From Desulfurellales bacterium (GTDB lineage: Bacteria; Campylobacterota_A; Desulfurellia; Desulfurellales; Hippeaceae): DNA of 64,000 nt. Under the pieces are notes generated by a model. That model was given only the letters and a program-made list of their open reading frames with translations. It was not told the origin of the DNA and did no database searches. The stretch spans positions 1 to 64,000 of the forward strand of contig JALVUQ010000108.1 of NCBI GenBank assembly GCA_027035575.1. The letters run 5' to 3'. Of the stretch, positions 21,348-43,856 are shown one piece after another; within the stretch, counting starts at the first letter, position 1; every line of letters begins with the position of its first letter. The position numbers were made by a program, and so were the translations under genes.

Positions 21348-21443
21348 AAAAACACACCTCAAACAAAATTCTATTGCTTAAAAACCGCACACGGCAGCTC
21401 TAAGCTTCTTCTTGAACTATAAAATAGCCAGCGAAGATGTAAT

Positions 21444-21602: not shown

Positions 21603-21630
21603 TTGACAAACAAACAAAGGTATATAAAAT
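21603..21630 (+). promoter_or_regulatory. Promoter of the plus-strand exopolysaccharide operon
   Basis: TTGACA (21603-21608), 16-nt spacer, TAAAAT (21625-21630). The start would be near 21637, about 85 nt ahead of the hlyD-like gene. Confidence 0.6.
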
Positions 21631-21642
21631 AAATTTTATTGT

Positions 21643-21684
21643 GCATTCGAAAGCTTATCAAACTGCTTTAGGTATGAAAAATGC
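21643..21684 (+). promoter_or_regulatory. Nested stem in the 5' leader of the exopolysaccharide operon
   Basis: GCATT (21643-21647) can pair with AATGC (21680-21684), enclosing AAAGC (21650-21654) with GCTTT (21665-21669). It sits in the predicted leader RNA. I could not match it to a known riboswitch, including the c-di-GMP classes. Confidence 0.3.
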
Positions 21685-21721
21685 TATAGTGTTAAAAGAA
21701 AAATAGGAGTAGGAAATTGCT

Positions 21722-22735
21722 GTGTTTTTAAGATTGTTGGGCTTTTTTATTGTTTTTACTCTTCTATCTTGCAGTGTCACACCTCCTGAAAAGAAAGAGA
21801 TAAAAAAGTCAAAAAATAAAATTGAAATCGTTTTTGAAGGGGTAATATACCCGTCAAAGTCGCATAAAATAGTTTCTCCTATTTCTGCAAGAATAAAAAA
21901 AGTTTATATACAAAACGGGGATAGTGTTAAGGCAGGAGAAAAACTCATTGAATTTGACGATAGTAATGCACAAATAGATTATAAAAAAGCTCTGATAGAT
22001 TATAAAATTGCTAAAATTAAGGCTCAAAAAATTTATACCCCTTTTATAGCTTACAACACAAGGGTTTTAATAGATAACGCAAAAGAAAAACTGCTCAAAA
22101 TTTATTTACTGTATAAAAAAGGATATACATCTCTATCCGAACTAAAAAATGCAGAAAACGAATATGAAAATTTAATTAACAGCGTGAATGTTCAACGCAA
22201 TGATTTTTATAGCAATTCGGCTTCACGCTTTAAAAGTCAGAAAGAGGCCGAAGAAGCCGTGAAAAAAGCCCTCCTTGAAGTTGAAAGATTAAGACATATC
22301 TTGAAATATAGATATATTAAGTCTCCTATAAACGGAATTGTTGTTGGTTTAAAAATATTATCAGGAACAACCGTGGGGCAAAACGATATTTTGGGTGAGA
22401 TTATGAATATAGATAGGGTTAAACTCAAGGGGGCTTTTTTCCCTGGTACTTATAGATTTTTAAGAGTAGGTATGTTGGCTAAAGTACAATGTTTAACGAC
22501 ACCGACCTATGAAGGTATAGGTGCTATCGAAAAAATTTCCCCCGTTGTTGACCCTGCAACAGGAAGAATGTCTCTTTATATGACATTAAAGAACAAAAAT
22601 TATATACTGCAACCGGGAACTAAATGCTTAATAACTTTTACTTTTAAGAAGAAAGATGTGAAAGCTATGGGTTTAGATGTTGAAAGCAAGAAAATATATA
22701 TACGCTCCAAAATCAAGTCAAGTGCAATCAAGTAA
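21722..22735 (+). CDS. HlyD/RND-type periplasmic adaptor lipoprotein
   Basis: The 337-residue protein starts with a lipoprotein signal (FFIVFTLLSCS, Cys 17), so it is lipid-anchored. It then has the membrane-fusion-protein layout: a lipoyl half (VIYPSKSHKIVSPISARIKK, GDSVKAGEKLIEFDD), a helical hairpin (about 80-185), the second lipoyl half (YIKSPINGIVVGL) and a beta-barrel (VVDPATGRMSLYMTLKN). The start is GTG after AGGAGTAGG. Adaptors of this kind link an inner-membrane pump to TolC, but neither an RND pump nor an ABC exporter is present, so a role in polymer export is inferred from the following pelF/pelG genes. Its 3' end overlaps the next gene by 59 nt. Confidence 0.82.
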   Translation: MFLRLLGFFIVFTLLSCSVTPPEKKEIKKSKNKIEIVFEGVIYPSKSHKIVSPISARIKKVYIQNGDSVKAGEKLIEFDDSNAQIDYKKALIDYKIAKIKAQKIYTPFIAYNTRVLIDNAKEKLLKIYLLYKKGYTSLSELKNAENEYENLINSVNVQRNDFYSNSASRFKSQKEAEEAVKKALLEVERLRHILKYRYIKSPINGIVVGLKILSGTTVGQNDILGEIMNIDRVKLKGAFFPGTYRFLRVGMLAKVQCLTTPTYEGIGAIEKISPVVDPATGRMSLYMTLKNKNYILQPGTKCLITFTFKKKDVKAMGLDVESKKIYIRSKIKSSAIK

Positions 22736-24365
22736 AACAATAAAAATACAATTTATAAAGCTATTACTCTCGATTTTCATATTTTTTGTCTTGTTTTTGA
22801 CAAAAAATTCTTATGCTGCCGGTTTATATACCATTAGAATAGGAGTATACAAAAATATTGAGTCAGTTCTTGAAGTTTTTAAGAAATTACCCGAACGGTT
22901 TAAAAAAAATTCACTTATTTTAAAAGAAAAAGAAGGATATTTCTCATTGAACATATTTGAGTTTAAAACAAAGAAAAAAGCCCTGTCAAAAGTAAAAGAT
23001 TTAAAAAAGACTTTTAAACATTGCTCCGTATTGCAGGTGATAAACAGTAATAGAATAAATATTCCGACCGTTCTTTCCAAAAGCCAATCAAACAAAATTC
23101 AAAAAAAACATATCGATTTTTATTCTATGTCGGATAATTTAAGTGAATTTTATGCAGATATAGTAAAATATAAACAAATGTATGACGTTTTCGACATAAG
23201 GAGATATATAAATAGAGTGGAAAAGGCAAATCTGGATTTAAAAATAGCGTTTAAAGATTATAAAAAAAGTTTGTTAACATTTACCCAAACTTTGAATGCT
23301 TATCGTTGGAATGTAGGATTCGAAGCAAATGCAGGTGAATCATATGACGGGATACCCCATTTTAATAGTGGTGCGGGAATAGTATTTAACAAGATTCTGT
23401 ATAACGGTGGAGCTTATCCTATACTTTCCAAAGAAGGAGAAATAATAGGTTATCTTGAAAGACAAAAACTAATAAGTAAAAATGATATTTTGGTTTTAAG
23501 TGCCATATCAACATATTCTGCCAAGCTTTATTCTCAAGAGATGAAAAATTTTGTAGAAAATCAACTAAAAGAAAGAGAAAAACTATTTCGAACGGTTAAG
23601 CAGCTTTATAAAAAGGGAGAGACCGTATCCAAATATGCTTATCTGACAGAAAAACGAGAGTTGATTAAACTTAAAATTGAGTTGCTAAAAACGCTAAATG
23701 CAGATAAAAAAACAGGATTTGAATTCAGGTATCTCGGTAGAATATACTCTCAAAAGCCCATAAGGTTAAATAGATTTGACATTGACTATAAGATTTATTT
23801 CCCGGGGTTACAAAAAAAAGCTCTTGTGAACAGCAGCATTTTAAAAAAAGACAGATATGAATTTACTAATTCGCTATTGAGTTTTGAGGTATCAAAGAGA
23901 GACAATAAGCCGCTCATAAGCTTTGGAGGAAAAGCAGGAATAAGCCACTCAACAAATACAACAGGAACAAAAAACGAATATTATAATGTCGGTATAAATC
24001 TGACATATCCCATATTCGACGGGGGCATAAGAAAGACCGACCTGGCTATGAAAAAATTATCCGTTTTAAAAGCCAAACTAATGATGCAAAAGGATAGTGA
24101 AAGTATTATAAAAAAATTATCTATACTATATCAAGACTATGTGTTATATATGAAAGAAGAAAATAAGTTGAAAGAAATGTACGAAATTGACAATGAAAGG
24201 CTCAAGATATCTAAAACAAAATATCTTCAAGGAATGGGTAACTATACGTCCATAAGAGATTCGTGGAATGACCTTATTGACACCAAGGAAAAACTTTTAA
24301 ATGCTTACATTATGAAAAATAAGATAATGCTTGATATGCTCGTGATTTCAGGAGAAAAACTCTGA
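22677..24365 (+). CDS. TolC-family outer-membrane protein with N-terminal SPOR-like domain
   Basis: The 562-residue product has a hydrophobic signal segment (about 26-47, FIKLLLSIFIFFVLFL), then a region resembling a SPOR domain (about 50-122: YTIRIGVYKNIESVLEVFKK ... SKVKDLKKTFKHCSVLQV), then a TolC-like outer-membrane factor with two long coiled-coil repeats and beta strands (NVGFEANAGESYDGIPHFN; NVGINLTYPIFDGGIRKTDL). SPOR domains bind denuded peptidoglycan, so the fusion could anchor or place the channel. It overlaps the adaptor gene and is 1 nt from pelF. Confidence 0.72.
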   Translation: MLKARKYIYAPKSSQVQSSKTIKIQFIKLLLSIFIFFVLFLTKNSYAAGLYTIRIGVYKNIESVLEVFKKLPERFKKNSLILKEKEGYFSLNIFEFKTKKKALSKVKDLKKTFKHCSVLQVINSNRINIPTVLSKSQSNKIQKKHIDFYSMSDNLSEFYADIVKYKQMYDVFDIRRYINRVEKANLDLKIAFKDYKKSLLTFTQTLNAYRWNVGFEANAGESYDGIPHFNSGAGIVFNKILYNGGAYPILSKEGEIIGYLERQKLISKNDILVLSAISTYSAKLYSQEMKNFVENQLKEREKLFRTVKQLYKKGETVSKYAYLTEKRELIKLKIELLKTLNADKKTGFEFRYLGRIYSQKPIRLNRFDIDYKIYFPGLQKKALVNSSILKKDRYEFTNSLLSFEVSKRDNKPLISFGGKAGISHSTNTTGTKNEYYNVGINLTYPIFDGGIRKTDLAMKKLSVLKAKLMMQKDSESIIKKLSILYQDYVLYMKEENKLKEMYEIDNERLKISKTKYLQGMGNYTSIRDSWNDLIDTKEKLLNAYIMKNKIMLDMLVISGEKL

Positions 24366-24366
24366 T

Positions 24367-25839
24367 ATGAATAATATAAAGGTTGTGCTCACGACTGAGG
24401 GAACCTATCCTTACTACACGGGAGGGGTGAGCACATGGGCGCATATTCTTTTGAATGAAATTAAGGACATTGAGTTTAATATCATTGCAATTATGATGCA
24501 TCCTTTTGTATCGATAAAGTTCGATTTGCCAATCAATGTGACAAAACTTATCAACATTCCCCTCTGGGGAACCGAGGAGCCTGTGGAGTATATGAGTGAG
24601 TTGCCGTTTCACAAGATATTTTTAAAGAAGTTTGAAACAGAGCAGAATGAAAAGGCTATTGATGAATTTTTGGGATACTTAGAAGGCATAACTATATCTA
24701 TTTATGAAGAAAACCCGGATTTTGAAAAAATCGGAGACATAATTTTTGGATTTCATAACTATTTTCTCAAATACGATTACTCAACTGTTTTTAAATCGAA
24801 AAAGGTTTGGGATTTTTTTTACAAACTAATGATGGAACTGAATAAAAAAAGGGGGCTTGAGCTCTCCATTTACGATATTGTCGAATCGTTAAGGTGGATT
24901 TACAGATTTTTTATATCCCTGCTTTCTCCTATTCCCAAAGCAGATATATACCATTCGAGTGCGGCTGCATTCTGTGGGTTGCCGTGCGTTATAGCAAAGA
25001 AGAAGTTCGGGAGTAAGTTCTTGCTTGCCGAGCACGGTGTTTATGTCAGGGAACAGTATATTTTCATTTCGAGAAGTAGATTTCCTTTTTTATCCAAAAT
25101 GTTTATTATGGGATTAATCAAGCTTATATCAAGAATAAACTACTACTTTGCCGATCAGGTTTCTCCCGTTTGTGCATACAACAAAAGATGGGAAGTAAAA
25201 TTCGGTAAAACTAAAGAGAAGAAAATAAAGGTTATATATAACGGCATAGACACGGATAGATTTAAAAAGTTGGATGTAGAAAAGGATAAAAGGTTTACGG
25301 TTGTTTCTATAGCTCGTATTGACCCCCTCAAAGATATTGAAACATTTATACGGGTGTGTGCGGAACTTAAAAAAGAGATTCCTAATGTCTTATGTAAGCT
25401 CTACGGCCCGCCGACAAGTCAGGATTACTTTAAAAGATGTAAAGAGTTAGTTAAAGAGCTTGATGTAAAAAAACATTTTATATTTGCCGGTAGTACATCG
25501 ACACCTGAAAGGGCAATGAACGAAGGAGACCTGTTTGTGTTGACGAGTATTTCCGAGGCTTTCCCGTTTGTCGTTATAGAGGCTATGGCTTGTGAAAGGG
25601 TTGTTGTGTCTTCAGATGTGGGTGGCGTGAGAGAGGTTCTTGAGGGTTATGGTTTTCTTGTTAAACCCAAGGATTATAAGGTCTTTGCTGAAAAAATCGT
25701 TTATCTTTATAAAAACAGAGAGGTGCTTGCCGAGATGTCATTAGCGGCGAGGGAGAGGGTTTTAAGGGGTTTTAGAATTAGGGATATGGTTAGAAATTAC
25801 AGGATTAATTATTACAAGTTGGCAAGGGGCGGTTTTTGA
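24367..25839 (+). CDS. pelF: PelF-type GT4 glycosyltransferase
   Basis: The 490-residue cytoplasmic glycosyltransferase begins VVLTTEGTYPYYTGGVSTWA, the PelF signature, and has LAEHGVYVREQYIF, the GT4 nucleotide-sugar region VVSIARIDPLKDIETFIRV, and the EX7E-type acceptor motif in SEAFPFVVIEAMACERVVV. In Pseudomonas, PelF uses UDP-GlcNAc-type donors to polymerise the GalNAc/GalN-rich Pel polysaccharide. It is directly followed by a PelG-like flippase, the strongest evidence that this locus makes a Pel-like polymer. Confidence 0.9.
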   Translation: MNNIKVVLTTEGTYPYYTGGVSTWAHILLNEIKDIEFNIIAIMMHPFVSIKFDLPINVTKLINIPLWGTEEPVEYMSELPFHKIFLKKFETEQNEKAIDEFLGYLEGITISIYEENPDFEKIGDIIFGFHNYFLKYDYSTVFKSKKVWDFFYKLMMELNKKRGLELSIYDIVESLRWIYRFFISLLSPIPKADIYHSSAAAFCGLPCVIAKKKFGSKFLLAEHGVYVREQYIFISRSRFPFLSKMFIMGLIKLISRINYYFADQVSPVCAYNKRWEVKFGKTKEKKIKVIYNGIDTDRFKKLDVEKDKRFTVVSIARIDPLKDIETFIRVCAELKKEIPNVLCKLYGPPTSQDYFKRCKELVKELDVKKHFIFAGSTSTPERAMNEGDLFVLTSISEAFPFVVIEAMACERVVVSSDVGGVREVLEGYGFLVKPKDYKVFAEKIVYLYKNREVLAEMSLAARERVLRGFRIRDMVRNYRINYYKLARGGF

Positions 25840-25842
25840 GAT

Positions 25843-27405
25843 TTGAAGAGCGATAAAGAGCTCAAAGGGCTTTTAAAAGCTATAACAAAGGGCAAAACAA
25901 AACCTATAGACTCTTGGGAGATTGCAGCTTTGGTTGAATCCAACGGCATAAGGGATTTAGACGCAAAGCAGGAGTGGGGTTTTGAGGATGTTTTTGCTCT
26001 ATCAAAAAAGCTTATGGAGTATGTTCAATCGGTTGAATGGGAAGAAGAAAAACCATCTGAAGGTAAAAAACCGAAGCTGAAAAGGATTTTTGTTAGCTAC
26101 ATTAAAGGTACGCTGTTTGCTTTGCCGATGGCTTTACAAATAATTTCAATGGTTGCAGTGGGCATAGGTATCTGGTCTTATGTTCATTTTACTTTGAGAG
26201 AAGCTACTGCTATTGCCCTTGGGACACTCCTTGCTTTGACTACAACAGGTGGTATATCCCAGATCATTGGAAGAAAGGGGCTTTTTTACCTGAAATTTGA
26301 AGAGTTCATACTTGCAAGCAAGATTACAAAAAGACTGTATTTCACAGGGTTAGTTGTTGTTGTTATATTTGCATTTACCATATATATTATTAACGATTTT
26401 ATGAACCTATTCCCTCCATACATGATAAAAATATCAATCTACTACTACATTCTGATTGCCGTAATATTTTTAATTTTTTCAATTTTTTATGTCCTTGAGG
26501 ATTATTTGACAATCACATTTATTATTTTGATGGGGATACTACTTGTATATGTTTTGTTTAAATATTTGCATTATAATATATATGTTTCTCAATGGATATC
26601 AATGCTTGTTATAGTTGTTATCTCTAATATTGTTGCGTTTTTAAAACTTAGGAAAATAGAGCTTGAGAGCTCATCCGAAGGTATAACCTTACCCAAGCTT
26701 TCAACCCTGTTTTACACCCTTTACCCTTTTTTTATATACGGTATCCTTTACTTTGTTTTTCTTGTACTTGATAGGTTCTTTGCATGGACAACATCAAAAA
26801 ACTTCCTGCCTTATCCGATGTGGTTTAATATGCCCTACGAGGTTGGGGTTGACTGGGCGCTTCTAACTTTTGTTATAACCATAGCTTTGATTGAGGTTTT
26901 TGTTTATGAACTTGGAATTCTCTCATTTGTCAAAATTAAATCCATTAAAGCTCAAAATATTGATGAATTTAACAGCCACTTTTTGAAAGTTTACAAAATC
27001 GGTATTATTACATTCCTTATTGTTGGCCTAATATCTATACCACTATCATATTTCACACCTTTTGTCCTGTTTAAAGAATTTAACCTATCTCACCTTCATA
27101 TGTTTTTTATACTCATAAACAAAAAGGTTTTCTGGTTCGCCTCCATTGGCTATGTATTTTTAAGTATCGCCCTTTTAAACTGTGTTATATTCTTTTCCTA
27201 TTCAAGGTACGGGTTTGCTGTAAAATCAATTGCCTTAGGTGTTCTTGTAAATATTATAGTTGGTTTCTTTTTCAGCAGGGTTTTTGCCTATTACTATTCT
27301 GTTGTTGGTTTAACCGCCGGCTCCATAGTGTTTATGACATCGAGTACATATCAGGCGTGGCGGTTTTTTAAAAACTTTCACTATTACTATTACTCCGCTT
27401 ATTGA
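25843..27405 (+). CDS. pelG: PelG-like polysaccharide flippase/transporter
   Basis: The 520-residue protein has about 90 charged, soluble N-terminal residues (LKGLLKAITKGKTKPIDSWE, WGFEDVFALSKKLMEYVQ) followed by about 12 membrane helices (ALPMALQIISMVAVGIGIW; PYEVGVDWALLTFVITIAL; VVGLTAGSIVFMTSSTYQAW). The helices resemble the MOP-superfamily PelG transporter that works with PelF. The soluble extension is longer than I expect for PelG. The start is TTG, 3 nt after the pelF stop. PelG identity rests on position and topology as much as on motifs. Confidence 0.72.
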   Translation: MKSDKELKGLLKAITKGKTKPIDSWEIAALVESNGIRDLDAKQEWGFEDVFALSKKLMEYVQSVEWEEEKPSEGKKPKLKRIFVSYIKGTLFALPMALQIISMVAVGIGIWSYVHFTLREATAIALGTLLALTTTGGISQIIGRKGLFYLKFEEFILASKITKRLYFTGLVVVVIFAFTIYIINDFMNLFPPYMIKISIYYYILIAVIFLIFSIFYVLEDYLTITFIILMGILLVYVLFKYLHYNIYVSQWISMLVIVVISNIVAFLKLRKIELESSSEGITLPKLSTLFYTLYPFFIYGILYFVFLVLDRFFAWTTSKNFLPYPMWFNMPYEVGVDWALLTFVITIALIEVFVYELGILSFVKIKSIKAQNIDEFNSHFLKVYKIGIITFLIVGLISIPLSYFTPFVLFKEFNLSHLHMFFILINKKVFWFASIGYVFLSIALLNCVIFFSYSRYGFAVKSIALGVLVNIIVGFFFSRVFAYYYSVVGLTAGSIVFMTSSTYQAWRFFKNFHYYYYSAY

Positions 27406-27427
27406 AGGATTTGGAGGGGGGTAAAAA

Positions 27428-28297
27428 GTGGAGATCAGTTTTGTAATTCCGGCTTATAACGAAGAAAAAACGGTGGGTGGTGTTATCGAGGCTTTAAAAA
27501 AACGCTTCCCGGATAGTGAGACTGTGGCTATTGACGACGGTTCAACAGATAGCACTTTTAAAGAAATTCAGAAAGCTGATGTTGTCGTTAGCCACAATAA
27601 AAACAAAGGGATAGGCGAAGCCATCTCTTCAGGAATAAAAAATTCCTCCGGGGATTTCTGTGTAATTGTTGATGCCGACGGTCAGCACCCTTTATCCGAG
27701 GTTGAAAAGGTGGTTGATAGGATAAAGCCATCCATAGATGCGGTTTTAACACAGAGAAAAAGCCTTCTTTCGTCTGGGATTTTTAAAGCCGTAGGCAAGT
27801 TTATACTGACCTTGCTGGTCAACTTTTTCACAAAACAGAAGTTTAAGGATATAAACAGCGGGCTTTGTGCTATTAAAAGAGAAAGAATCGTTAGATATAT
27901 TCAAATTCTTCCCTCCCGTTATTCGTTTTCGACTGCGACTTTGATTTTGGTTAACCTTTTGAAATTTAACGTGGAGTATGTTGAGATAGATGTAGAAAAA
28001 AGAAAAACCGGAAAAAGCAAAGTCAGAATAAAAGATTTTTTGACAGCACTTTTTATTGTTCTTTCGATGGTAATCATTTTTGAACCGTTGAATTTTTTTA
28101 TCCCTCTTTCCCTTTACTCTTTCTATATTGGTGTTTTGTCGGGTCTTTTCAGCCTTTTGGTTAAAAACATTCAAAATCCTCTTGGCTTTTCCCACTTTTT
28201 CACATTCTCTGTTTCGATGTTTATTGTTGGGCTCATATCACACCAGATATCAATAGTTATAAAAAAGCTTTTCAGTGGAGAAAAAGATGAGGGTTAA
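27428..28297 (+). CDS. GT2 glycosyltransferase (dolichyl-phosphate mannose synthase-like)
   Basis: The 289-residue protein has a GT-A domain with FVIPAYNEEKTVGGVIEAL, VAIDDGSTDSTFKEI and VIVDADGQHPLSEV (DxD), and two or three C-terminal membrane helices. Family members transfer a sugar from a nucleotide donor onto a polyprenyl phosphate, making lipid-linked donors for GT-C enzymes. That fits a large GT-C-like membrane protein further down the operon (31985-34207). Start is GTG after GGAGGGGGG. Confidence 0.88.
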   Translation: MEISFVIPAYNEEKTVGGVIEALKKRFPDSETVAIDDGSTDSTFKEIQKADVVVSHNKNKGIGEAISSGIKNSSGDFCVIVDADGQHPLSEVEKVVDRIKPSIDAVLTQRKSLLSSGIFKAVGKFILTLLVNFFTKQKFKDINSGLCAIKRERIVRYIQILPSRYSFSTATLILVNLLKFNVEYVEIDVEKRKTGKSKVRIKDFLTALFIVLSMVIIFEPLNFFIPLSLYSFYIGVLSGLFSLLVKNIQNPLGFSHFFTFSVSMFIVGLISHQISIVIKKLFSGEKDEG

Positions 28298-29315
28298 AAG
28301 GTTAAACCCAAAAGACAGCGCTGAAATACAGAAATGGGAAGACTTTGTTTTAAAAAACGGATATATGTGGCACTCAAGCAGTTGGATAGATATAATTAAA
28401 AACAGCTATGGATTTGAGGATATTTACCTTTATGTTGAAGATAGTGGTGGCAATATTGTTTCTGTTTTGCCCCTTTTTCATGTTAAAGCTCCCTTTTTCA
28501 AAGATGAGCTTGTTTCTCTCCCCCATGTTGAGGCTGCAGGAGTTGTAAAAGTAGACTACTTTGACCACTATGAAAAATTTTTAATTGAAAATGTTAAGTT
28601 TAAACAACTAACGCTTTACCAATTCAATGAAAAAATAAAAAATTTTCCTCACAACAACATCCATGCCGTATTTATACTGGATCTGCCGAAAACCGAGGAA
28701 GAACTTGTGAGTCTGTTCAAAAAAAAGGAGAAGGCAAGTTTTAAAAGAATTTTCAATAGGGAATTAAGAATTGACACAGGGTGCAGCGAAAAAAATATAC
28801 AGCGGTTCCTTAGGCTCATGAAGTTAAAAATGAAAGAGTTTGGAACACCCTGGCATATAGATAAGTTTTTTTACAATCTGTTTGAGGTTTTTGATGAAAG
28901 GATTACGCTTGCTATCTGCAGTTATGAGAATAAAGATGTTGGTGTCGGGGTTGTTTTGGTATATGGAGACACTATGTATGAACTTTATTTAACAGTTCCC
29001 AATGAATTTAGAAAGACCAAATCCGGTTCTACTCTTGAGTACTATTTTACCAAGATGGCTATGGATTTGAAATTAGAGAGATATTCTTTTGGTAGAAGCC
29101 CTAAAGGTAGTGGCCCTTACGAACATAAGAAGAGATTTAAAGCTAACGAATATCCACTTAATATATATTCATTTGATTTTGATGAAGGTGAACTGAAGCC
29201 CAGGGTTAAACCTTTTATCGGTCAGAAATATAGATGGGCAAGTAAAATTGTGAAGATGGTTCCTACGCCTATTCTTAATATTTTTTCTGGAAGTGTAAGA
29301 AAATGGATATATTAA
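28287..29315 (+). CDS. FemAB-like acyltransferase (XrtA/PEP-CTERM-associated type)
   Basis: The 342-residue protein has the two-GNAT FemAB fold. The pattern matches the XrtA/PEP-CTERM-associated FemAB group: MWHSSSWIDIIKNSYGF, DELVSLPHVEAAGV, MKEFGTPWHIDKFFYNL and FGRSPKGSGPYEHKKRF. These proteins are found in exopolysaccharide clusters and probably acylate the polymer or its carrier. No exosortase is in the window. I chose ATG 28287, with GGAG six bases upstream, over an earlier GTG at 28275. It overlaps the GT2 gene by 11 nt. Confidence 0.78.
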   Translation: MRVKRLNPKDSAEIQKWEDFVLKNGYMWHSSSWIDIIKNSYGFEDIYLYVEDSGGNIVSVLPLFHVKAPFFKDELVSLPHVEAAGVVKVDYFDHYEKFLIENVKFKQLTLYQFNEKIKNFPHNNIHAVFILDLPKTEEELVSLFKKKEKASFKRIFNRELRIDTGCSEKNIQRFLRLMKLKMKEFGTPWHIDKFFYNLFEVFDERITLAICSYENKDVGVGVVLVYGDTMYELYLTVPNEFRKTKSGSTLEYYFTKMAMDLKLERYSFGRSPKGSGPYEHKKRFKANEYPLNIYSFDFDEGELKPRVKPFIGQKYRWASKIVKMVPTPILNIFSGSVRKWIY

Positions 29316-30208
29316 AAACTCTTTCCAAATTCTTTGGATTGGCAATACTCCTTTATATAGCTTTAGCAAAGGTACGTTGGAGTCAATTTGCTCAAATAGT
29401 AGATAATCTCAACTATTCTTTTATATTTTGGGCTTTTCTGGCAATGATACTCATGATTTTTATTAAATATGCAAGGATTTTTTTAAATTTGAAGAATATA
29501 GGTATAGAAATAAACAACCTCAAGCTTTTTAGAATCTATATAAACTCACTCCTTCTTGGTCAAATCACGACCCAAGCCATAACAACCCTAACTGCTGCAG
29601 GAGCCACAATCATTTCCACAAAAGGAGAAAAAAAGATAAGAATTGGCAATGTTTATCTTTTAAACAACCTGCTTGACCTTATTTTCGCCGTATTGATTTT
29701 TTTTGTTTGCATTGCACTGAACCCCGAATTGTTTGGGATTGTCAAGGTTAAATTCGGTGTATGGTATGCTGTATTTTTTCTTGTTATGGCTGTGTTATTT
29801 GTCGCTCTATTTTTAATCTACAAAAATAGGATTTCTCAAAGGATCAGCTATTTTTTTAATGAAATTGTTGAATCTTTTAGACTTTCTGTGAAAAGCTCGT
29901 TAATTTTAACTTTTGTTGTTTGGGTTGTTTATGTTTTGAGCTGCTATCTTGAGGCAAAAATTTTTTATATTAATCTATCCCTGTCTTTTCTTGTTCTTGT
30001 TTATGTTGCCGGCAGTGTGATTACGGCTATACCTATCTCTGTAGCCGGGCTTGGAACAAGGGACTTGGCATTTATATATCTTTTGGGACTTAACGGTATT
30101 GAACCGGAAAAGGCTTTTTTGTTGAGCCTATTTAGTTTTATAATAAACCCTATAGCTGCTATGACATTTTTATATCTAATTACAGTTGTGCTTAAGGAGA
30201 AGAAGTGA
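29303..30208 (+). CDS. Lysylphosphatidylglycerol synthase TM-region (LPTM/UPF0104)-like flippase
   Basis: The 301-residue, roughly eight-helix protein has LPTM/UPF0104 features: KTLSKFFGLAILLYIALAKV, GQITTQAITTLTAAGATI (the PAR-like motif region) and PISVAGLGTRDLAFIYLLGL. Related proteins move or modify lipids, and they occur beside polyprenyl-phosphate sugar transferases. In this operon it may move a lipid-linked sugar. It overlaps the FemAB-like gene by 13 nt and the deacetylase by 4 nt. Confidence 0.8.
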   Translation: MDILKTLSKFFGLAILLYIALAKVRWSQFAQIVDNLNYSFIFWAFLAMILMIFIKYARIFLNLKNIGIEINNLKLFRIYINSLLLGQITTQAITTLTAAGATIISTKGEKKIRIGNVYLLNNLLDLIFAVLIFFVCIALNPELFGIVKVKFGVWYAVFFLVMAVLFVALFLIYKNRISQRISYFFNEIVESFRLSVKSSLILTFVVWVVYVLSCYLEAKIFYINLSLSFLVLVYVAGSVITAIPISVAGLGTRDLAFIYLLGLNGIEPEKAFLLSLFSFIINPIAAMTFLYLITVVLKEKK

Positions 30209-30999: not shown

Positions 31000-31010
31000 G
31001 AGGTATTGGT

Positions 31011-35522: not shown

Positions 35523-35525
35523 ATT

Positions 35526-36923: not shown

Positions 36924-36944
36924 TAAATAATCTATTTCAACTCT

Positions 36945-37697
36945 TTATCTAATCGGCAACTCATCCCACTGCCTCAAATTTTGAACAATAAATATTTTAA
37001 CATCGGTTAATAAACTAATCTTATCCATAAAGCTCAAAAACTCTGCCTCACTTTTAAAGTCTTCTGCTCTAAACGCAATGGCAACATTGTACCGTACATA
37101 AGGCTCAATAGTTTCCTGAATTTTTTTCAAGTTCTTAACTCCGTAAATCATAAAAACCATCCTATTGCTGCTTCTTGCAATATCATCTATTACACCTTTA
37201 TAGTGTCGAGTCGTTATGGCAACACTAACCCCCTTTTTATACTTTTCAGCCACTGCGTGCACCTTATTTAAAAACTCAACAAAAAGCTTTAGATATTTAG
37301 CTTTATCTTCTTTAAATCCATTAAGAATATGGGGTTCAATATCAAGATGAACATCAAAACCGCTGCTAAAGATATTGTTCAATCTATCTTCAACCACACC
37401 CCACCTTTCGGGAAAAATATATTTCGGCTCGCTCAAAACTATCTCAACATCCTTTCCCTGAAGTACAAGATTTTTAGCCCAAGCTTTTATATCTTTATTT
37501 TCGGAAAAAGGCTTATAAGATAGTTCAACTATATCAATGCCTTTGGAACTCACAAATTTTTCAATATTAGAAAGCTTCAGATCATCAAAGCTGCTCGACC
37601 AAATATATACACCAAATTTTAGCTTTTGATTAGCAAAAGAACTACCGGCAAACATCAGCATAACCACTACAAACAAAAAAATTCTTTTAATTTTCAT
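36945..37697 (-). CDS. Secreted TIM-barrel-like protein, putative glycoside hydrolase
   Basis: The 250-residue product has a signal peptide (RIFLFVVVMLMFAGSSFA) and repeated beta-alpha units: LKFGVYIWSSSF, GIDIVELSYKPF, FDVHLDIEPHIL, VSVAITTRHY, RMVFMIYGV and VAIAFRAEDF. The LDIEPH segment gives a D-x-E pair like the catalytic pair of GH18/GH85-type barrels. No family is certain. I chose the ATG at 37697, which overlaps the GT2 stop by 11 nt; an upstream in-frame start at 37739 lies deeper in GT2. It is last in a five-gene operon and may trim the polymer during export. Confidence 0.6.
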   Translation of the reverse strand: MKIKRIFLFVVVMLMFAGSSFANQKLKFGVYIWSSSFDDLKLSNIEKFVSSKGIDIVELSYKPFSENKDIKAWAKNLVLQGKDVEIVLSEPKYIFPERWGVVEDRLNNIFSSGFDVHLDIEPHILNGFKEDKAKYLKLFVEFLNKVHAVAEKYKKGVSVAITTRHYKGVIDDIARSSNRMVFMIYGVKNLKKIQETIEPYVRYNVAIAFRAEDFKSEAEFLSFMDKISLLTDVKIFIVQNLRQWDELPIR

Positions 37698-38997
37698 CTC
37701 TAATAGTTCTCGACACCTTCCACGGATTCCACTTATCATAAAAAGAAGCTTTGAAGAGAAGTTCCATAAGATATGAAAAAGTTCTTACTGACCTCAAGAA
37801 AACTCCGGTATAGAATGGCATTAGAGGAAGAAACAGCCAAAGATATTTTTCACTCCTATTAAAAGTATCATCAAGAGCAATTCTTGCCATAAAATACTCA
37901 AGGATGTTCAAGCTCATATACAAAAAATAATTGACTACAGAAATCGTAAAAAGGCTCATCCTAAAGAAAAATACTAGTTGAAATAGATAAACTATCCATT
38001 TAAAATCAAGAATAAAGTTGAAAAATATGTTGTCCAGCACTGTTAGTGCATTAAAAAGTTCGAAGTTTTTATTGAATGGAGACAGCATATCCCTGTGTCT
38101 TCTCAACCTAAACCTGACAAGAGAGCGACTCCAACGATACCTCTGCTTTATCAACCTCTTAACCGTTGTGGGAACAGATGTGTATGCAATTGCCGTTGGC
38201 TCATGAAGAACCTTAAACCTCAACTTCCTTATCCTCAAAACTATATCTCCGTCAAGTCCGGGACCAACATCCCACCCTTTAAGCCTCAACAAAACATCCC
38301 TTCTAAAAGCACCAAAGGCACCCGAGATTATTCTTAGAATTCTAAGAACCGAGCTAACAATCCTGCCCACGGTTATGGTCTTTAAATACTCCAGAGCCTG
38401 AAGCCTGGTGAGAAGGTTGTAATCTATATTTTTAACCCTGACATCACCTCCGACAGCCCCCACACCATCCTGCATGTAAAAGGGAAATATCACATTTTCT
38501 ATGGCATCTTCCCTTAAATGCGTATCGGCATCGAGATGGACAACAAACTTTCCCTTTGAAAACCTCAAAGAGAGGTTTGCTGCGGCAGCCTTACCGCCTC
38601 TCCTTTCGTTCCTGAAGTAGTTATCTATTAATCCCTGTCTCCTCAAAGCCCTCAAGATTTGCAGAGTGTCATCATCTGAACCATCATCAACAAGAATAAT
38701 CTCAATGTTTTTGTAGGTTTGCTGTTTTATAGATTCGACAAGTGCGGGTAGATGCTCACCCTCATTCTTTCCGGGGGCAATTACAGTAACAAGGGGCTGT
38801 TCCCTAAACAGTGCAAGTTTTGCATCCCTGACTCTATACCTATCCTTCCATCTCTGGAATAGAAAAATCGGGACGCACAGTATATCCAGTAGTACAAACC
38901 TCGGGAGATCAAAGAAAAAGAACGGCCAAAACAAGATTATTAACTGTCCCAATGAATGGTTTAAAAACCAATCAACAATATGGACGATTATATTCAT
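37687..38997 (-). CDS. Processive family 2 glycosyltransferase (PgaC/cellulose-synthase-like)
   Basis: The 436-residue protein has N-terminal membrane helices, a GT-A domain and C-terminal helices. All processive GT2 motifs are visible: VTVIAPGKNEGEHL, ILVDDGSDDDTLQ (D1), VHLDADTHLRED (DxD), GPGLDGDIVLRIRKLRF (catalytic-base region) and KQRYRWSRS (the QxxRW type). Members polymerise beta-linked sugars and push the chain across the membrane. It lacks a PilZ domain. The upstream TackOD1/degenerate-GGDEF gene overlaps it by 4 nt and may supply c-di-GMP control. Confidence 0.9.
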   Translation of the reverse strand: MNIIVHIVDWFLNHSLGQLIILFWPFFFFDLPRFVLLDILCVPIFLFQRWKDRYRVRDAKLALFREQPLVTVIAPGKNEGEHLPALVESIKQQTYKNIEIILVDDGSDDDTLQILRALRRQGLIDNYFRNERRGGKAAAANLSLRFSKGKFVVHLDADTHLREDAIENVIFPFYMQDGVGAVGGDVRVKNIDYNLLTRLQALEYLKTITVGRIVSSVLRILRIISGAFGAFRRDVLLRLKGWDVGPGLDGDIVLRIRKLRFKVLHEPTAIAYTSVPTTVKRLIKQRYRWSRSLVRFRLRRHRDMLSPFNKNFELFNALTVLDNIFFNFILDFKWIVYLFQLVFFFRMSLFTISVVNYFLYMSLNILEYFMARIALDDTFNRSEKYLWLFLPLMPFYTGVFLRSVRTFSYLMELLFKASFYDKWNPWKVSRTIRDEN

Positions 38998-40418
38998 TCT
39001 TCTTTATATTCTATTTGTTTTAGGTTTTTTAAAAGCTCATCAACCAGTTCCTCCGGTTCTTTAGCCTCTTTTTTAGGAATTTCCGATATTGAGCTTTCAG
39101 TGATAGGGTTAATGCCGACATTTTCTTTAATGAGCTTATCAACTTCAATTACCAAACGATTTTTCACCACCTCTGCTCCTTTAAGGGGTGTGTGAGGAAG
39201 AAGAAATAAAATTGTTCCCTTGTTTAAGATAGACAGTATATCGCTTTTTCTTGTTGCCATATTTATCAAAGAGCCTATTTCCTTTAAAAGATTATCGGTT
39301 TTTTTGCCCAATTTCGCATATATATCGTTTAAATTCTTAATCTGGAAAGCAATCGCAGATGATTCAACTCCATACCTCTTTGAACGCTCTAATTCAAGCT
39401 GAACGAGCGTCAAGAAAGAATTGTAAGGCAGAATGTTTAACTGCTCACTTAGAGCTTTCAATAGAGGGCTTTCAAAACCATAAATGGCGAAATTCTTTCC
39501 TGTGGATGTTAATGTATATATCTTAATCGTTTGAGCTATCAGATCCTCAGGGGAACTTTCCCTCTCACAATTAAAGCAAACAGTTTTTACATCAGGCTCT
39601 TGTGTAAAAAACCCGCAGTGGTTGCATTTATGTATAACAGCGGGTTTGTCGTAATCAACCCCAAGACCTTTGAGTTTTTTGCTGCACTTTGGACATACAA
39701 GCTGCCCGTCTTTCATAAAATCACTTTCCGGACCGATATATGCACAAGGAAAGTGGTGGACAAGGCTCTCCTCAAAAAGGCTTGCCGAACCACAATTTGG
39801 ACAAACCTCCATAAAGTTTAAAAAAGAACAGTGGCACTTATTGCAAAGGTGAACCTTCTCAAAAAATTCACCCTCAATAGAGCCATTTTCCTCTAAAAAC
39901 TCAAGCGTTGAAAACAATGCGTAATCCTCTTTAGAGAAAAAACTTTCAATTGCCGGGTAGGTTATGCCAAAAAAGGAGGTTCTATCCCTCACGGGCTCTA
40001 CTCTTCTATCCCTTGTGAATATAAACCTTAAAACTCTTAAAAATAGGTCGTCCTCCTTTTCATCTTCTATTGGATTGATTTTTCTAATAGCGTCATTAAT
40101 CCTGCTTATCTTCTTTAACTCAAACTTAATGGTATCTTCATCTAACTCGCTCGAGCTGAAAACCTCATCAGCCATAGCAGAAACCCTTGGAGAGAGTTTC
40201 CTCTCGGCAAAAAAAATTACAGGTTTAAGATAGACCTTGGACGAGCCCAAGTGTCTTATATTCCTGCATACCTCTTCGAAAAAATCATCGGTGTTGCCAA
40301 ACACAACAAAAGCTTCCGGCACCCTCGAACCATCTTTAATTTCTTTTTTGTCTATTCTTTTGTAAGGGAGTGGAAGCTTGACGGATAACTTTTTTTCCTC
40401 AATTAAAAAATACTCCAT
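38994..40418 (-). CDS. TackOD1 zinc-ribbon protein with degenerate GGDEF domain
   Basis: The 474-residue protein has an N-terminal domain (about 1-115), then a Cys-rich TackOD1-type region (about 120-290) with five CxxC pairs: CNKC (192), CPNC (206), CPKC (242), CNHC (265) and CFNC (281), plus HHFPCAYIGPESDF and GVDYDKP. The C-terminus (about 330-440) is a GGDEF fold whose active motif reads NKGTI (399-403) instead of GGDEF, but RKSD (390-393) keeps the RxxD inhibitory site, six residues before. That is the PelD-like state: no cyclase, possible c-di-GMP receptor. It overlaps both neighbours (16 and 4 nt). The receptor role is inferred. Confidence 0.8.
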   Translation of the reverse strand: MEYFLIEEKKLSVKLPLPYKRIDKKEIKDGSRVPEAFVVFGNTDDFFEEVCRNIRHLGSSKVYLKPVIFFAERKLSPRVSAMADEVFSSSELDEDTIKFELKKISRINDAIRKINPIEDEKEDDLFLRVLRFIFTRDRRVEPVRDRTSFFGITYPAIESFFSKEDYALFSTLEFLEENGSIEGEFFEKVHLCNKCHCSFLNFMEVCPNCGSASLFEESLVHHFPCAYIGPESDFMKDGQLVCPKCSKKLKGLGVDYDKPAVIHKCNHCGFFTQEPDVKTVCFNCERESSPEDLIAQTIKIYTLTSTGKNFAIYGFESPLLKALSEQLNILPYNSFLTLVQLELERSKRYGVESSAIAFQIKNLNDIYAKLGKKTDNLLKEIGSLINMATRKSDILSILNKGTILFLLPHTPLKGAEVVKNRLVIEVDKLIKENVGINPITESSISEIPKKEAKEPEELVDELLKNLKQIEYKEE

Positions 40419-41572
40419 ATCTTCCTCTCAATAACGGCTTTGATTTTTACACCATCAAGGTCAAACAATTCCTTTGGGGAATTCTCTACATTTATCACCC
40501 CAACCACAGGAGAAGGAAGTGGCCAGTAATTCTTTGTGAGTTTTGGCTGATACTTGGAGGCAGACGAATATATATCAATTAATTTGCCTGATAACTCCCT
40601 GCCGTCGGGCAAAACCAGGCTTAGCTTTAGCCCTTTTTTAAGGTACTTAAGCTTTTTCTGTCCGGCAACCAGTAAGAACTTTACCTTTATCTTATCCGGA
40701 ATAATTACGGCAAGACTATCCCCTTTAGCTACACTTTGATGCGGAACAACATTCACTTCCAAAACCTTTCCGTTTAACTGGGCTCTTACAACATCCTCGA
40801 CCTCTGTTTTAAAAACAGTGCCACCCATCTGTTTTAGTTCCCCTTTTAGAAGCGATATGCTTCTCTTCAAAGACCTTTCTCTAAACAGCAAACTTGCCCT
40901 TTCCGCGTTTTCCAAACTCTTTCTCTCCTGTTCAAGGCTCCTCAGGGTAGATTTAAGAGAAGCTAAGGCAGTCTTCAATCTCTCAATATTTAGCTTTATA
41001 CTTCCCAAACTATCAGGGTTTACAGTGGAAAGCTCCAAAAGCCTGTCTGTCCTGTTAAGTTCCCTATTCTGCAACACCATTTTCTGCATAGCCTTGAGCA
41101 AGCCCTCTTTGGAAATAATCTGGGCTTTAATGGAATTTATCTGGCTTTTTAATCTCAAAATGTCAGGTGTGTTAATATGTTTTAAATTGACTTCAACTGC
41201 GTTTAATTTTACTCTAAGGTCATCCAACCGAGTCCTTACGTTCAACCTTGCAGAAATCGGCAGTGTTGTCTCAACCGAATATTTAATAGAAAACAGCGGC
41301 TCACCCTTTTTTACAGCCATACCATTCTTAACAAAAATCTTATCCGCAACCCCATCTTTGTGAGTTTTTACAACCACCTTAGGGACCTGAATAAACCCTG
41401 TAAATTCAACATATCTCAGTTTGGTGTAAATAATGTAAATGATGTATAAAAACAGGAGAATGAGTACGGTTACGTATAAATAAAGCGCAATGTTGACCCT
41501 CGTCCTATCAGACTTTGGAGGATTCCCTTCCGGGACATAGTTTATTATCGTTTTTCTGTTATGAAGTCTCAA
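40403..41572 (-). CDS. HlyD-family membrane adaptor
   Basis: The 389-residue protein has a single N-terminal membrane helix (about 28-48), a lipoyl half (VPKVVVKTHKDGVADKIFV, NGMAVKKGEPLFS), a long coiled coil (about 105-245), the second half (AQLNGKVLEVNVVPHQSVAK) and a beta barrel. It is a TolC-coupled adaptor, but there is no ABC exporter nearby; a processive GT2 takes the usual pump position. It overlaps the tolC-like gene by 4 nt and the TackOD1 gene by 16 nt. Confidence 0.85.
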   Translation of the reverse strand: MRLHNRKTIINYVPEGNPPKSDRTRVNIALYLYVTVLILLFLYIIYIIYTKLRYVEFTGFIQVPKVVVKTHKDGVADKIFVKNGMAVKKGEPLFSIKYSVETTLPISARLNVRTRLDDLRVKLNAVEVNLKHINTPDILRLKSQINSIKAQIISKEGLLKAMQKMVLQNRELNRTDRLLELSTVNPDSLGSIKLNIERLKTALASLKSTLRSLEQERKSLENAERASLLFRERSLKRSISLLKGELKQMGGTVFKTEVEDVVRAQLNGKVLEVNVVPHQSVAKGDSLAVIIPDKIKVKFLLVAGQKKLKYLKKGLKLSLVLPDGRELSGKLIDIYSSASKYQPKLTKNYWPLPSPVVGVINVENSPKELFDLDGVKIKAVIERKIWSIF

Positions 41573-43482
41573 TTAGAACCTCCACTGTACACACTCACCA
41601 ACTCTCCAAAATCGAAGAGAAAGTTTTTAATTCCGGACCGATATAGTTCATCAAGTCTGTTTTCAAGCTGAAGCTCCGAGGTTATATGCTTTAAATTTAC
41701 AATAATACCCAGTTTATCAGAAGGAAAAAACGCTTCCTGCTGCGGTACAAATAGTATATCGGTTCTTTTTAACAGCTCCTTTAAGCCTTCTTTATCTGTC
41801 TTACCATCAAAAACAACACACCTCCAACTGCCCACAACTTTATTTAAATCTTTAACGCTTGAACAAAGGGGCGTTTTCTCATCTTCTCTCTTTCTATAAT
41901 CCAAAAGATAGCTCTTTATTCCCATATCACTCAATGCTCTAACCAAATCCTTCCCTTTTTTGGAATCAAACAAGCTTTTATCCATTATAACACCCTTAAC
42001 CCCTTTGGTATAAAGAAAATCCGTAATAAAATCCGGAGATAGAAGCTCAACCTCACTTCTCTTTAAAATTACATATCTCATGCCAACCCTGAAACGGTTA
42101 CCCAACGGAGCTAACTGTACCTCCCTTAAATTATTCTTCCACTTTACGCCGGTAATAGTAAAAAGGTTCACAATTCTTCTGTAAAGCAGCCCCTCGCTTG
42201 AAACAAACTCAAACTCACTATCCAAATAATTCTTCAAATTTTCAAGGAGAGCAGCATAATCTCTATAAGAAGCGCCTCCGTTTTTCAGTTCACTTTCGAG
42301 TTTGTAACCTTCTCTTCTTATTCTCTCAAGAGCAATATCCATTCCATACCACATATTTACCGCATCGCTCACCTTCTCCTCTTCCTCTCTGTAAAGCAGG
42401 TTTGTATAACTTTCAAGATAAGTCCTTTCCCTTTCAAGAGTATTCTGATTTTCTGTTAGCTTGAGTCTATCAATCTGTTCGTCTTTTTTACCCAAAGGAA
42501 TAGACAAATTAACCCCTCCAACCAAACCCTGCTTTGAATAGAAAGAGCTGTCCCCTTTTGTTGAATAGTAAAGATAAGCTTCAATCTTAACATTGTGCTT
42601 CCAGTTCTCTTTTAATTTCAACAGCCTCTCGTTTTCATTTAAGCTACCCATCTCTTTTGATGCTTCGATATGTTCAAGTTGGCTCATCACTCTTTTAAAT
42701 CTTATAGATAAAACCGGAGGAACCGTATAATCATCGTACTTACAGAAACTCCATTTTTCAACGGTGCAATAGGTCTCTACCAACTGTTCAAATTGATTCA
42801 GTTCTGCTTTGGTTTTTCCGATATCACTCTCTATCTTTACAAGCGAATCTGCAAGTTCTATTCCATAAAAATACCCTTCTTTTTTTACCTTCATTAACTG
42901 CTCAAGGAGCTTAATCTTCTCTTTTAAGATAGGAATTTTCAACTTAGCGAAATAGTAGCTAATAAAATTCTGTTTACATAAGGACATAAGTTTTCTTCTT
43001 TTAAGCTCGGAAGCCTGCAATGAAAGAGATTGCCCCAAAGAAAACTCTTTTGCCTTAATTCTATTCTCCAACAATCCTCCCTTAACAATATCCCAGCTAA
43101 ATCCTGCAAAGGCCGAATTGTTGTAGAGATTCAGATTTCCTCTTGAACTCCTCATCCCGGCTCTCAATTTTATACCCATATTATGCCTTAAAGCCCTTTT
43201 TTGCGCCTCTATTAAGCTTTTTTCGGTTTTAGTATCATTAATAGTGCAGAATCTCTCAACACTATAAATCAAGTGCAATCTCCCTGAAACACTCAAGGGG
43301 GCTGCAAGCAGCCTATTAGACAGCTTTAAAACCTTTAAAAGCTTATTTTTCTCTATGGTTATTTTTTTATCCGTGCCCAATTGTTTTCGACCAACAACAG
43401 AGCTCTCACCGTAAGAAAATGACTGCAGCGGATAGAGAGAAAGAAATAAAAACACAAAAAATCCGCCCGCCATTTTATACAT
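41569..43482 (-). CDS. TolC-like outer-membrane protein with C-terminal extra domain
   Basis: The product (about 637 residues) has a signal peptide (MYKMAGGFFVFLFLSLYPLQ, cut near SFS), a TolC-like region (about 60-470; MGIKLRAGMRSSRGNLNLYN, LVGGVNLSIPLGKKDEQIDR) with coiled coils, and about 170 C-terminal residues not usual for TolC: VKGVIMDKSLFDSKKGKDLV, MGIKSYLLDYRK, GIIVNLKHITSELQLENRL and GIKNFLFDFGELVSVY. The extra domain could be periplasmic or surface exposed; it is alpha/beta with no motif I recognise. An in-frame ATG at 43536 would lie about 5 nt from the predicted transcription start, so 43482 is preferred; neither has a clear ribosome site. Confidence 0.7.
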   Translation of the reverse strand: MYKMAGGFFVFLFLSLYPLQSFSYGESSVVGRKQLGTDKKITIEKNKLLKVLKLSNRLLAAPLSVSGRLHLIYSVERFCTINDTKTEKSLIEAQKRALRHNMGIKLRAGMRSSRGNLNLYNNSAFAGFSWDIVKGGLLENRIKAKEFSLGQSLSLQASELKRRKLMSLCKQNFISYYFAKLKIPILKEKIKLLEQLMKVKKEGYFYGIELADSLVKIESDIGKTKAELNQFEQLVETYCTVEKWSFCKYDDYTVPPVLSIRFKRVMSQLEHIEASKEMGSLNENERLLKLKENWKHNVKIEAYLYYSTKGDSSFYSKQGLVGGVNLSIPLGKKDEQIDRLKLTENQNTLERERTYLESYTNLLYREEEEKVSDAVNMWYGMDIALERIRREGYKLESELKNGGASYRDYAALLENLKNYLDSEFEFVSSEGLLYRRIVNLFTITGVKWKNNLREVQLAPLGNRFRVGMRYVILKRSEVELLSPDFITDFLYTKGVKGVIMDKSLFDSKKGKDLVRALSDMGIKSYLLDYRKREDEKTPLCSSVKDLNKVVGSWRCVVFDGKTDKEGLKELLKRTDILFVPQQEAFFPSDKLGIIVNLKHITSELQLENRLDELYRSGIKNFLFDFGELVSVYSGGSN

Positions 43483-43856
43483 ATTAGCTGATTTAGTGTT
43501 ATGAGCAAAACATTTCCTTAAACAAAAATCTATCATATCGAGTTTTTCTTATAACAACTAAACTTTATAGAGTCAAATTTTTTGAAGACAATCGTCAATT
43601 CAAAATAAAAATATCCATTTTAGAGTTCGACATAAAAAACAAATGAGCCACTTTTGGGAGTTAGACAGAGCTTTCAATCTTTTTATTTTTCTTTTGTTTC
43701 TTACCCATTTTCCTTATGTTTCCAACTTACCACAACTTTCTATCCTGCACAAAGAAAACATACAAAGTTTTCTTTTGCCGTCAACGCTATTCTTAAACAG
43801 CCACAATCCATATACCAGTTGACTTTTGTTATTTTATTTGATAAAAGGTAGGCGTT
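43483..43856. other. Divergent intergenic region between the tolC operon and trp
   Basis: No gene was found. It holds the tolC-operon promoter (43548-43576, minus), an AT-rich stretch with no recognisable site (about 43580-43818), and a possible trp promoter TTGACT at 43819-43824, with GATAAA at 43840-43845 at 15-nt spacing. Confidence 0.6.
43548..43576 (-). promoter_or_regulatory. Promoter of the tolC-hlyD-tackOD1-GT2 operon
   Basis: Minus strand TTGACT (43576-43571), 17-nt spacer, TATAAG (43553-43548). The hexamers and spacing are identical to those upstream of the RRM gene (21444-21472). Transcription would begin near 43541. Confidence 0.7.

Follow-up and report, generated by a model that had tools for sequence, protein, structure and literature searches.

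A Candidate HlyD/TolC Polysaccharide Secretion Cassette with a Putative c-di-GMP Switch beside a Separate PelF/PelG-Like Locus in a Desulfurellales Bacterium

Introduction

The window analysed here, a stretch of 64,000 nucleotides on contig JALVUQ010000108.1 (C108) of a Desulfurellales bacterium, carries two convergent polysaccharide operons, and the question it raises is whether these are two halves of one machine or two systems that lie side by side. The original prediction took them together as a composite Pel-like exopolysaccharide (EPS) system in which TolC/HlyD export takes the place of the PelB/PelC route. The reading preferred here, to which we assign a probability of about 0.7, is that the five genes of operon B form a full copy of a widespread cassette that serves synthase-dependent polysaccharide secretion, gated by cyclic di-GMP (c-di-GMP) and exporting through HlyD and TolC-family proteins, and that operon A is a separate locus with PelF and a divergent PelG.

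The genome (G000) is a draft of 1.72 Mb in 108 contigs that is 96% complete. Gene identities were obtained by calling open reading frames (ORFs) and scanning the window proteins with Pfam and NCBIfam. Operon A runs on the plus strand (21,722-36,923, 12 genes) and operon B on the minus strand (36,945-43,536, 5 genes), and their stop codons (36,923/36,945) lie 21 bp apart, at the meeting point near 36.93 kb that had been predicted. Pfam cut-offs were passed by two HlyD proteins, two TolC-family outer-membrane proteins (OEPs), a family 2 glycosyltransferase (GT2), and the LPTM, Polysacc_deac_1, HD-GYP, Acetyltransf_6/FemAB and TackOD1+GGDEF proteins. All the genes named in the original prediction are present; the secreted TIM-barrel gene that closes operon B (36,945-37,739) was missing from its list. 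Its statement that there is no ABC or RND pump also holds among window ORFs of at least 250 aa, and Pfam scans found no inner-membrane pump in either operon.

Operon B as a Widespread Cassette

The five genes of operon B, in their order within the operon, are as follows.

41569..43536, minus strand (B1): TolC-family OEP (25.8 bits) with a C-terminal extension resembling a decayed TIM domain
40403..41572, minus strand (B2): HlyD periplasmic adaptor (HlyD_3, 39.8 bits)
38994..40418, minus strand (B3): TackOD1 zinc domain (PF18551, 187.9 bits) with a degenerate GGDEF domain reading RKSD at the I-site; predicted c-di-GMP receptor
37687..38997, minus strand (B4): processive GT2 polysaccharide synthase
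36945..37739, minus strand (B5): secreted glycosidase-like protein with a TIM barrel, part of a fusion with the OEP in most other lineages

Related loci were collected by means of the TackOD1-GGDEF protein alone. Since no other gene served as a search hook, the linkage of the remaining cassette genes is not circular. Of 372 genomes surveyed, 14 had a protein above the PF18551 cut-off. Scanning 84,980 species genomes with a pattern drawn from a seven-row TackOD1 alignment gave 46 loci; a 13-row alignment was tried for the pattern and rejected as too diverse. It was found that a GT2 gene directly follows TackOD1 in 52 of 56 loci, 51 times within 60 bp and once (L087) at 147 bp. The exceptions are three distant TackOD1 proteins that are tied to no cassette and L091, which has HlyD and an OEP-TIM fusion and shows no GT2 match. 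In 50 of the 56 loci an HlyD gene is found on the same strand at a distance of no more than 6 kb, and the three GT2-bearing loci that lack it are cut upstream by a contig edge. An OEP or OEP-TIM fusion is present in 36 of the 56, and in several distant loci both OEP and HlyD are called independently by Pfam. Other gene families recur in at most 8 of the cassette loci, and no ABC, RND or MFS pump is among the families that they share.

RefSeq annotation gives the same picture on plasmids: a glycosyltransferase comes directly after the TackOD1 gene in four of five plasmid loci (Plesiomonas, Methylocystis, Roseibium, Phyllobacterium), and an annotated HlyD is next in line on the Plesiomonas and Phyllobacterium plasmids. 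The TackOD1 genes themselves are annotated there as 'diguanylate cyclase', 'response regulator' or 'hypothetical protein', and the cassette suggests a possible function for proteins that now carry the first or the last of these labels. TackOD1 was also seen without a neighbouring GT2 in the stretch available in L082, L084, L085 and L167 (7659-9041); these include a 29-kb Aeromonas caviae plasmid, where the gene is annotated as a diguanylate cyclase.

According to the labels of the tree, the cassette occurs in eight phyla (Campylobacterota, Thermodesulfobacteriota, Myxococcota, Pseudomonadota, Bacteroidota, Balneolota, Aquificota and Caldisericota) and in two gene orders, namely OEP-TIM/HlyD/TackOD1/GT2 and TackOD1/GT2/OEP-TIM/HlyD. 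The second order without an OEP, as found in Vibrionaceae and Psychromonas, forms one clade (support 100/99). The closest named relative with operon B is a Desulfurellaceae metagenome-assembled genome (MAG; L087), and the GT2 of the window groups with Desulfobacterales and other members of the first order. The second cassette type, however, occurs in Desulfurella acetivorans, a member of the window genome's own taxonomic order, and this difference points to horizontal acquisition.

The synthase motifs D, D, D and QRxRW are invariant across an alignment of 51 homologues. The curated family nearest to B4 is PgaC/IcaA, at 151-158 bits against a cut-off of 422; NodC scores lower and is likewise far below its cut-off. 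The nearest solved structures are those of chondroitin and hyaluronan synthases. Taken together, these families and structures hint at an amino-sugar polymer; the sugar used by operon B is probably a hexosamine. A Pfam scan of B4 returned no PilZ match.

In most members of the cassette, OEP and TIM domain form a single fused protein, with the TIM domain at the C-terminal end. The TIM domain has a gene of its own in the window, L087 and L088, which form one clade (support 100/100). In the window (about 200 aa) and in L087, the C-terminus of the OEP aligns with the TIM profile in hhalign (E 3e-5, probability 72%) and looks like a shortened TIM domain without its middle. For this reason the split appears to be derived, and a decayed TIM domain on B1 next to an intact B5 may reflect a gene split after duplication. 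The AlphaFold model of B5 (predicted local distance difference test, pLDDT, 93.4) has PgaB (4f9j) as its top Foldseek match, and a GH191 alpha-galactosaminidase is also found among many TIM barrels. The residues W33, D119-x-E121 and M183-x-Y185 are invariant in the alignment of the domain, and their arrangement recalls glycoside hydrolases of the GH18 type; the profile also has a weak YaaH match. A further match of the TIM-domain profile is PDB entry 10yv (E 2e-6), a Cellulomonas fimi protein deposited as a putative glycosidase, with which it has an LDxEP motif in common. This entry offers a possible route to the substrate of the domain.

Operon A: A Rare Locus with PelF and a Probable Distant PelG

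Operon A comprises the following genes.

21722..22735, plus strand (A1): HlyD/RND-type membrane-fusion protein with lipobox LLSC (HlyD_D23, 67.5 bits); conserved in the related genome G011
22677..24365, plus strand (A2): TolC-family OEP (82.7 bits); start codon uncertain
24367..25839, plus strand (A3): PelF-type GT4 glycosyltransferase (NF038011, 165 bits, cut-off 100)
25843..27405, plus strand (A4): divergent PelG-like inner-membrane transporter with about 10 hydrophobic segments
27428..28297, plus strand (A5): GT2 of the polyprenyl-phosphate glycosyltransferase type (Glycos_transf_2, 82 bits; weak AglJ/ArnC-like NCBIfam matches)
28275..29315, plus strand (A6): FemAB/GNAT-like protein, nearest to XrtA-associated FemAB (TIGR03019, 132 bits, below the cut-off of 260)
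29303..30208, plus strand (A7): LPG_synthase_TM (LPTM) flippase-like membrane protein (PF03706, 71.8 bits)
30205..30999, plus strand (A8): stand-alone NodB/CE4 polysaccharide deacetylase (PF01522, 68.9 bits)
30948..31985, plus strand (A9): putative lipoprotein of 345 aa, no Pfam/NCBIfam match; G011 orthologue 68% identical
31985..34207, plus strand (A10): polytopic membrane protein of 740 aa, no Pfam/NCBIfam family match; 85% identical in G011
34191..35522, plus strand (A11): GH114/PelA-hydrolase-like TIM-barrel candidate, weak
35526..36923, plus strand (A12): candidate membrane-anchored HD-GYP phosphodiesterase (HD_5, 106.6 bits) with intact HDIG and HHE..DGSGYP motifs

The PelF assignment of A3 is well above its cut-off. 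A4, which had been predicted to be PelG-like, scores 5.4 bits against PF16933 (PelG; cut-off 29), and its copy in the sister genome G011 scores 19.4 bits over nearly the whole length. A hidden Markov model (HMM) iterated from A4 never reached canonical PelG, whereas profile-profile alignment did: in hhalign, a profile built from the three known copies could be aligned over 412 columns to 11 canonical PelG proteins (E 3.5e-7), and two unrelated membrane proteins of operon A, used as controls, gave a probability of at most 0.8%. On this profile-level kinship we take A4 to be a probable distant PelG. The prediction of a GH114/PelA-hydrolase-like protein fared less well. For A11 the label draws on the common motifs FFD, LNRGF and AES only; its orthologue scores 12.7 bits against GH114 (cut-off 27), and the alignment to the PelA hydrolase spans only 74 columns. 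PDB sequence searches with A11 and A4 gave nothing useful. The N-terminal 130 aa or so of A2 have no counterpart in the sister genome, and the L043 orthologue aligns from residue 130 only.

The A4 type of PelG is present in three of 386 surveyed genomes: the window genome, G011 (90% identical) and G286 (24% identical), where it also adjoins PelF. HlyD and OEP genes adjoin PelF in two of 14 PelF loci, those of the window and G011. The PelF locus L147 was considered as a relative of operon A and rejected, since it has only PelF in common. Operon A is therefore a rare, separate locus of 12 genes on PelF and a divergent PelG, with HlyD and TolC proteins of its own, and for this operon the predicted replacement of PelB/PelC by TolC/HlyD holds in the anatomical sense.

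The remainder of a Pel system was looked for with a canonical pel genome (G169) as control. PF16963 (PelD_GGDEF) had no match in the window genome and gave 85 bits in the control; PF24604, for the PelB barrel, matched neither the window genome nor G011 and gave 134 bits in the control. The model for PelG likewise matched in the control, and found no second, canonical copy elsewhere in the window genome. Neither PelD nor PelB was thus detected, as originally stated, and none of these three markers of a complete standard pel locus was found elsewhere. PelC and PelE were not recognised in operon A, no model having been used for either. Agd3_CE, a PelA marker, had no match in the window genome, but it carries little weight as the canonical control had none either. 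Since the genome is a 96%-complete draft, the absence of these genes is probable, not certain.

These results leave room for another explanation, in which operon A would be no Pel machine but a lipid-linked EPS or surface-glycan locus, similar to XrtA/PEP-CTERM loci, that borrowed PelF and PelG. Its FemAB protein and deacetylase are nearest to XrtA-system families; a GT2 of the polyprenyl type, the LPTM protein and the 740-aa polytopic protein would suit such a locus, and so would the lack of matches to the PelB and PelD models. However, A3 and A4 directly follow one another as a Pel synthase/translocase pair would, and no exosortase was seen in operon A. We consider this explanation plausible but less likely than not.

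Upstream of operon A, a sigma-70-like promoter (TTGACA-16-TAAAAT, 11 of 12 positions matching) lies at 21,603, where the original prediction let the locus begin. A 91-aa ORF on the minus strand (21,087-21,362) resembles, by eye, an RRM-type RNA-binding protein.

A Putative c-di-GMP Receptor

The regulator B3 has lost the GGDEF motif, which reads NKGTI in the window, and the same is true of all 48 TackOD1 proteins from GT2-bearing loci. The I-site RxxD is complete in 40 of these 48 proteins and its Asp is present in all of them. The AlphaFold model of B3 (pLDDT 89.5) matches GGDEF structures in Foldseek. RxxD of the B3-type profile aligns with the I-site of DgcR, which was solved with c-di-GMP (6zxm), and the profile scores lower on the sequence of 6zxb, which reads AKSA at this site. 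In the Pel system, a degenerate GGDEF domain with an I-site is a demonstrated c-di-GMP switch (PMC7112168). By analogy, B3 would have no cyclase activity and would bind c-di-GMP through the retained I-site, thereby gating the synthase.

The TackOD1 domain is described as a zinc ribbon with conserved CXXC motifs and an obscure function in archaeal response regulators (PMC5847659). The domain of operon B is of the same kind. However, the archaeal proteins have it fused to REC, whereas here it is fused to a degenerate GGDEF domain and linked with a polysaccharide synthase. In TackOD1, eleven Cys and one His never vary and are thus more strictly kept than the I-site Arg, so B3 might instead be a zinc or redox sensor or a scaffold for the synthase, with the GGDEF fold acting solely as a protein-protein module and not as a c-di-GMP receptor. 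We regard this as unlikely, since RxxD persists in most homologues although the active site is gone in every one, the very pattern of the c-di-GMP-binding PelD (PMC7112168).

Proposed Route of Secretion

Going by gene content, the following route may be proposed for operon B. The GT2 synthase would polymerise the sugar and thread the chain through the inner membrane, and the HlyD adaptor and TolC-family channel would convey it across the periplasm and the outer membrane. Trimming or editing of the chain would fall to the TIM-barrel domain, which is normally fused to the channel. The cytoplasmic TackOD1-GGDEF protein would act like PelD in the Pel system and activate the synthase upon binding c-di-GMP.

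Several points weigh against this route. The cassettes of Vibrionaceae, Caldisericaceae and a few others have no OEP, and a housekeeping TolC or a different route would have to serve there. The Arg of RxxD is missing in 8 of the 48 regulators, so that binding of c-di-GMP may not be universal, and ordinary GGDEF domains, too, often have the I-site Asp. With PgaB it is the TIM barrel that matches, at a TM-score of 0.55, which does not prove the substrate. The profiles for OEP, HlyD and TIM were built up from the cassette loci themselves.

HlyD and OEP are efflux-type families, and the lineages without a dedicated OEP could be accommodated if operon B served efflux or type I-like export, with a GT2 that produces a glycolipid or modifies a cargo, no polymer being secreted. 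This is improbable: the conserved cassette contains no ABC, RND or MFS pump, its GT2 shows the QRxRW motif of processive enzymes and comes closest to PgaC, NodC and hyaluronan synthase, and the channel has a glycosidase-like domain fused to it.

One System or Two

The nearest genome with both operons, the Desulfurellaceae MAG G011, retains both in full, operon A with its 12 genes and operon B with its five. Its operon A is complete across contigs C104 and C117, with the contig break inside the deacetylase, and unrelated genes follow the HD-GYP end. Operon B is complete on contig C79, flanked on one side by a chaperonin-like gene (by eye) and unrelated genes and on the other by regulator and transporter genes. 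About 50 further operon B loci have neither PelF nor an A-type operon adjoining. PelF and PelG are confined to operon A, and the operon B synthase is closest to PgaC, not to PelF. Because the two operons lie on different contigs of G011 with unrelated flanks, each intact, and because operon B stands alone in about 50 loci, A and B are two systems: independent polysaccharide operons lying tail to tail, apparently by chance. Separate occurrence of the operons is also what the original prediction had named as its refutation. In the distant genome G286, the PelF/divergent-PelG pair (C276, L051) and a TackOD1-GT2-HlyD cassette (C224, L083) are both present, on contigs too short to show whether they are linked.

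A single composite Pel-related machine, for which one might cite the adjacency and convergence of A and B in the window, the presence of TackOD1 in all three genomes with the A-type PelG, and the possibility that the degenerate GGDEF protein of B substitutes for PelD alongside the PelF and PelG-like proteins of A, is very improbable, given the separate G011 contigs, the solitary B loci, the separate HlyD and OEP of each operon, and the fact that G000 and G011 belong to one family, which reduces the co-occurrence to nearly one observation plus G286. The original prediction is thus not upheld for A and B jointly, including its replacement of PelB/PelC, and its processive GT2 and degenerate GGDEF protein with HlyD/TolC are an accurate description of operon B. 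The expected co-occurrence of PelF with TackOD1-GGDEF and a processive GT2 is not borne out by the neighbourhood survey; their adjacency is most simply a neighbourhood peculiar to this genome.

A Probable trp Attenuator Upstream of trpE

Next to operon B, the region 43,857-44,000 upstream of trpE encodes a leader peptide of 20 aa, MVSFGIERSIVLFNNWWWGS, in which three Trp codons stand in tandem. On its 3' side lies a 26-bp hairpin ending in T7, and the folded stretch has a free energy of -63.9 kcal/mol. Rfam had no match for this region. Leader peptide and hairpin together are a probable trp attenuator, and trpE proper probably starts at the ATG after the hairpin and not at 43,955.

Comparison with Known Systems

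The known Gram-negative synthase-dependent systems release their polymers via dedicated beta-barrel porins with TPR or lipoprotein scaffolds. The poly-N-acetylglucosamine (PNAG) system PgaABCD/IcaA resembles operon B in that PgaC/IcaA is the closest curated family of B4 and PgaB the best structural match of the TIM domain. However, operon B has neither the PgaA porin nor the PgaB deacetylase domain and has TolC/HlyD instead, and its synthase is far from the 422-bit cut-off at 151 bits. In the rhizobial system for mixed-linkage glucan, BgsB is a membrane-fusion-type protein. BgsA/BgsB is, like operon B, a small c-di-GMP-activated GT2 operon, but BgsA binds c-di-GMP via its own C-terminal domain and no TackOD1-GGDEF protein is described there (PMC9495663).

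The Pel system (PelABCDEFG; pelDEADAFG in B. cereus, PMC7112168) resembles each operon in a different respect. Operon A has PelF and a probable distant PelG and differs in that neither the PelD nor the PelB model matched; the regulator of operon B follows the logic of PelD, a dead GGDEF domain with an I-site. However, the Pel synthase is a GT4 and that of operon B a GT2, and PelD has transmembrane and GAF domains where the regulator of operon B has TackOD1.

The main survey of synthase-dependent operons makes no mention of TolC or HlyD (PMC7112194), and the open-access literature on TackOD1 and on c-di-GMP-linked HlyD/TolC polysaccharide export yielded no description of the cassette. We rate operon B as belonging to synthase-dependent EPS secretion, and neither as a new category nor as a Pel system. 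Within it, we lean towards regarding the operon as an undescribed, horizontally spread class, defined by an operon-encoded GT2, HlyD, a TolC channel fused to a glycosidase, and a c-di-GMP gate of TackOD1 and degenerate GGDEF.

The closest precedent for such a route is the XcsAB-TolC model of cyanobacterial cellulose secretion, in which tripartite export was proposed (Maeda et al. 2018, reviewed in PMC12430437). This 2025 review calls the route unvalidated, notes that its genes are not gathered in a single operon, and leaves it open whether cases organised as an operon exist (PMC12430437). Both systems combine a processive GT2, an HlyD adaptor and a TolC channel. However, XcsA carries PilZ, whereas the operon B synthase is PgaC-like with no Pfam PilZ match and is paired with a separate TackOD1-GGDEF regulator; the XcsAB genes are not in one operon with TolC, whereas operon B encodes channel, glycosidase, adaptor, regulator and synthase together. 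Synthase family, lack of PilZ, separate regulator and operon encoding thus set operon B apart. If the proposed reading is true, it would provide a first role for the TackOD1 domain in bacteria and operon-level support for polysaccharide export through TolC. As one operon brings together the synthase, the adaptor, the putative c-di-GMP switch and, in most lineages, also the channel and the glycosidase, the question of TolC export that XcsAB-TolC raised becomes directly testable, and the carriers of the cassette include easily grown marine Alteromonas and Vibrio.

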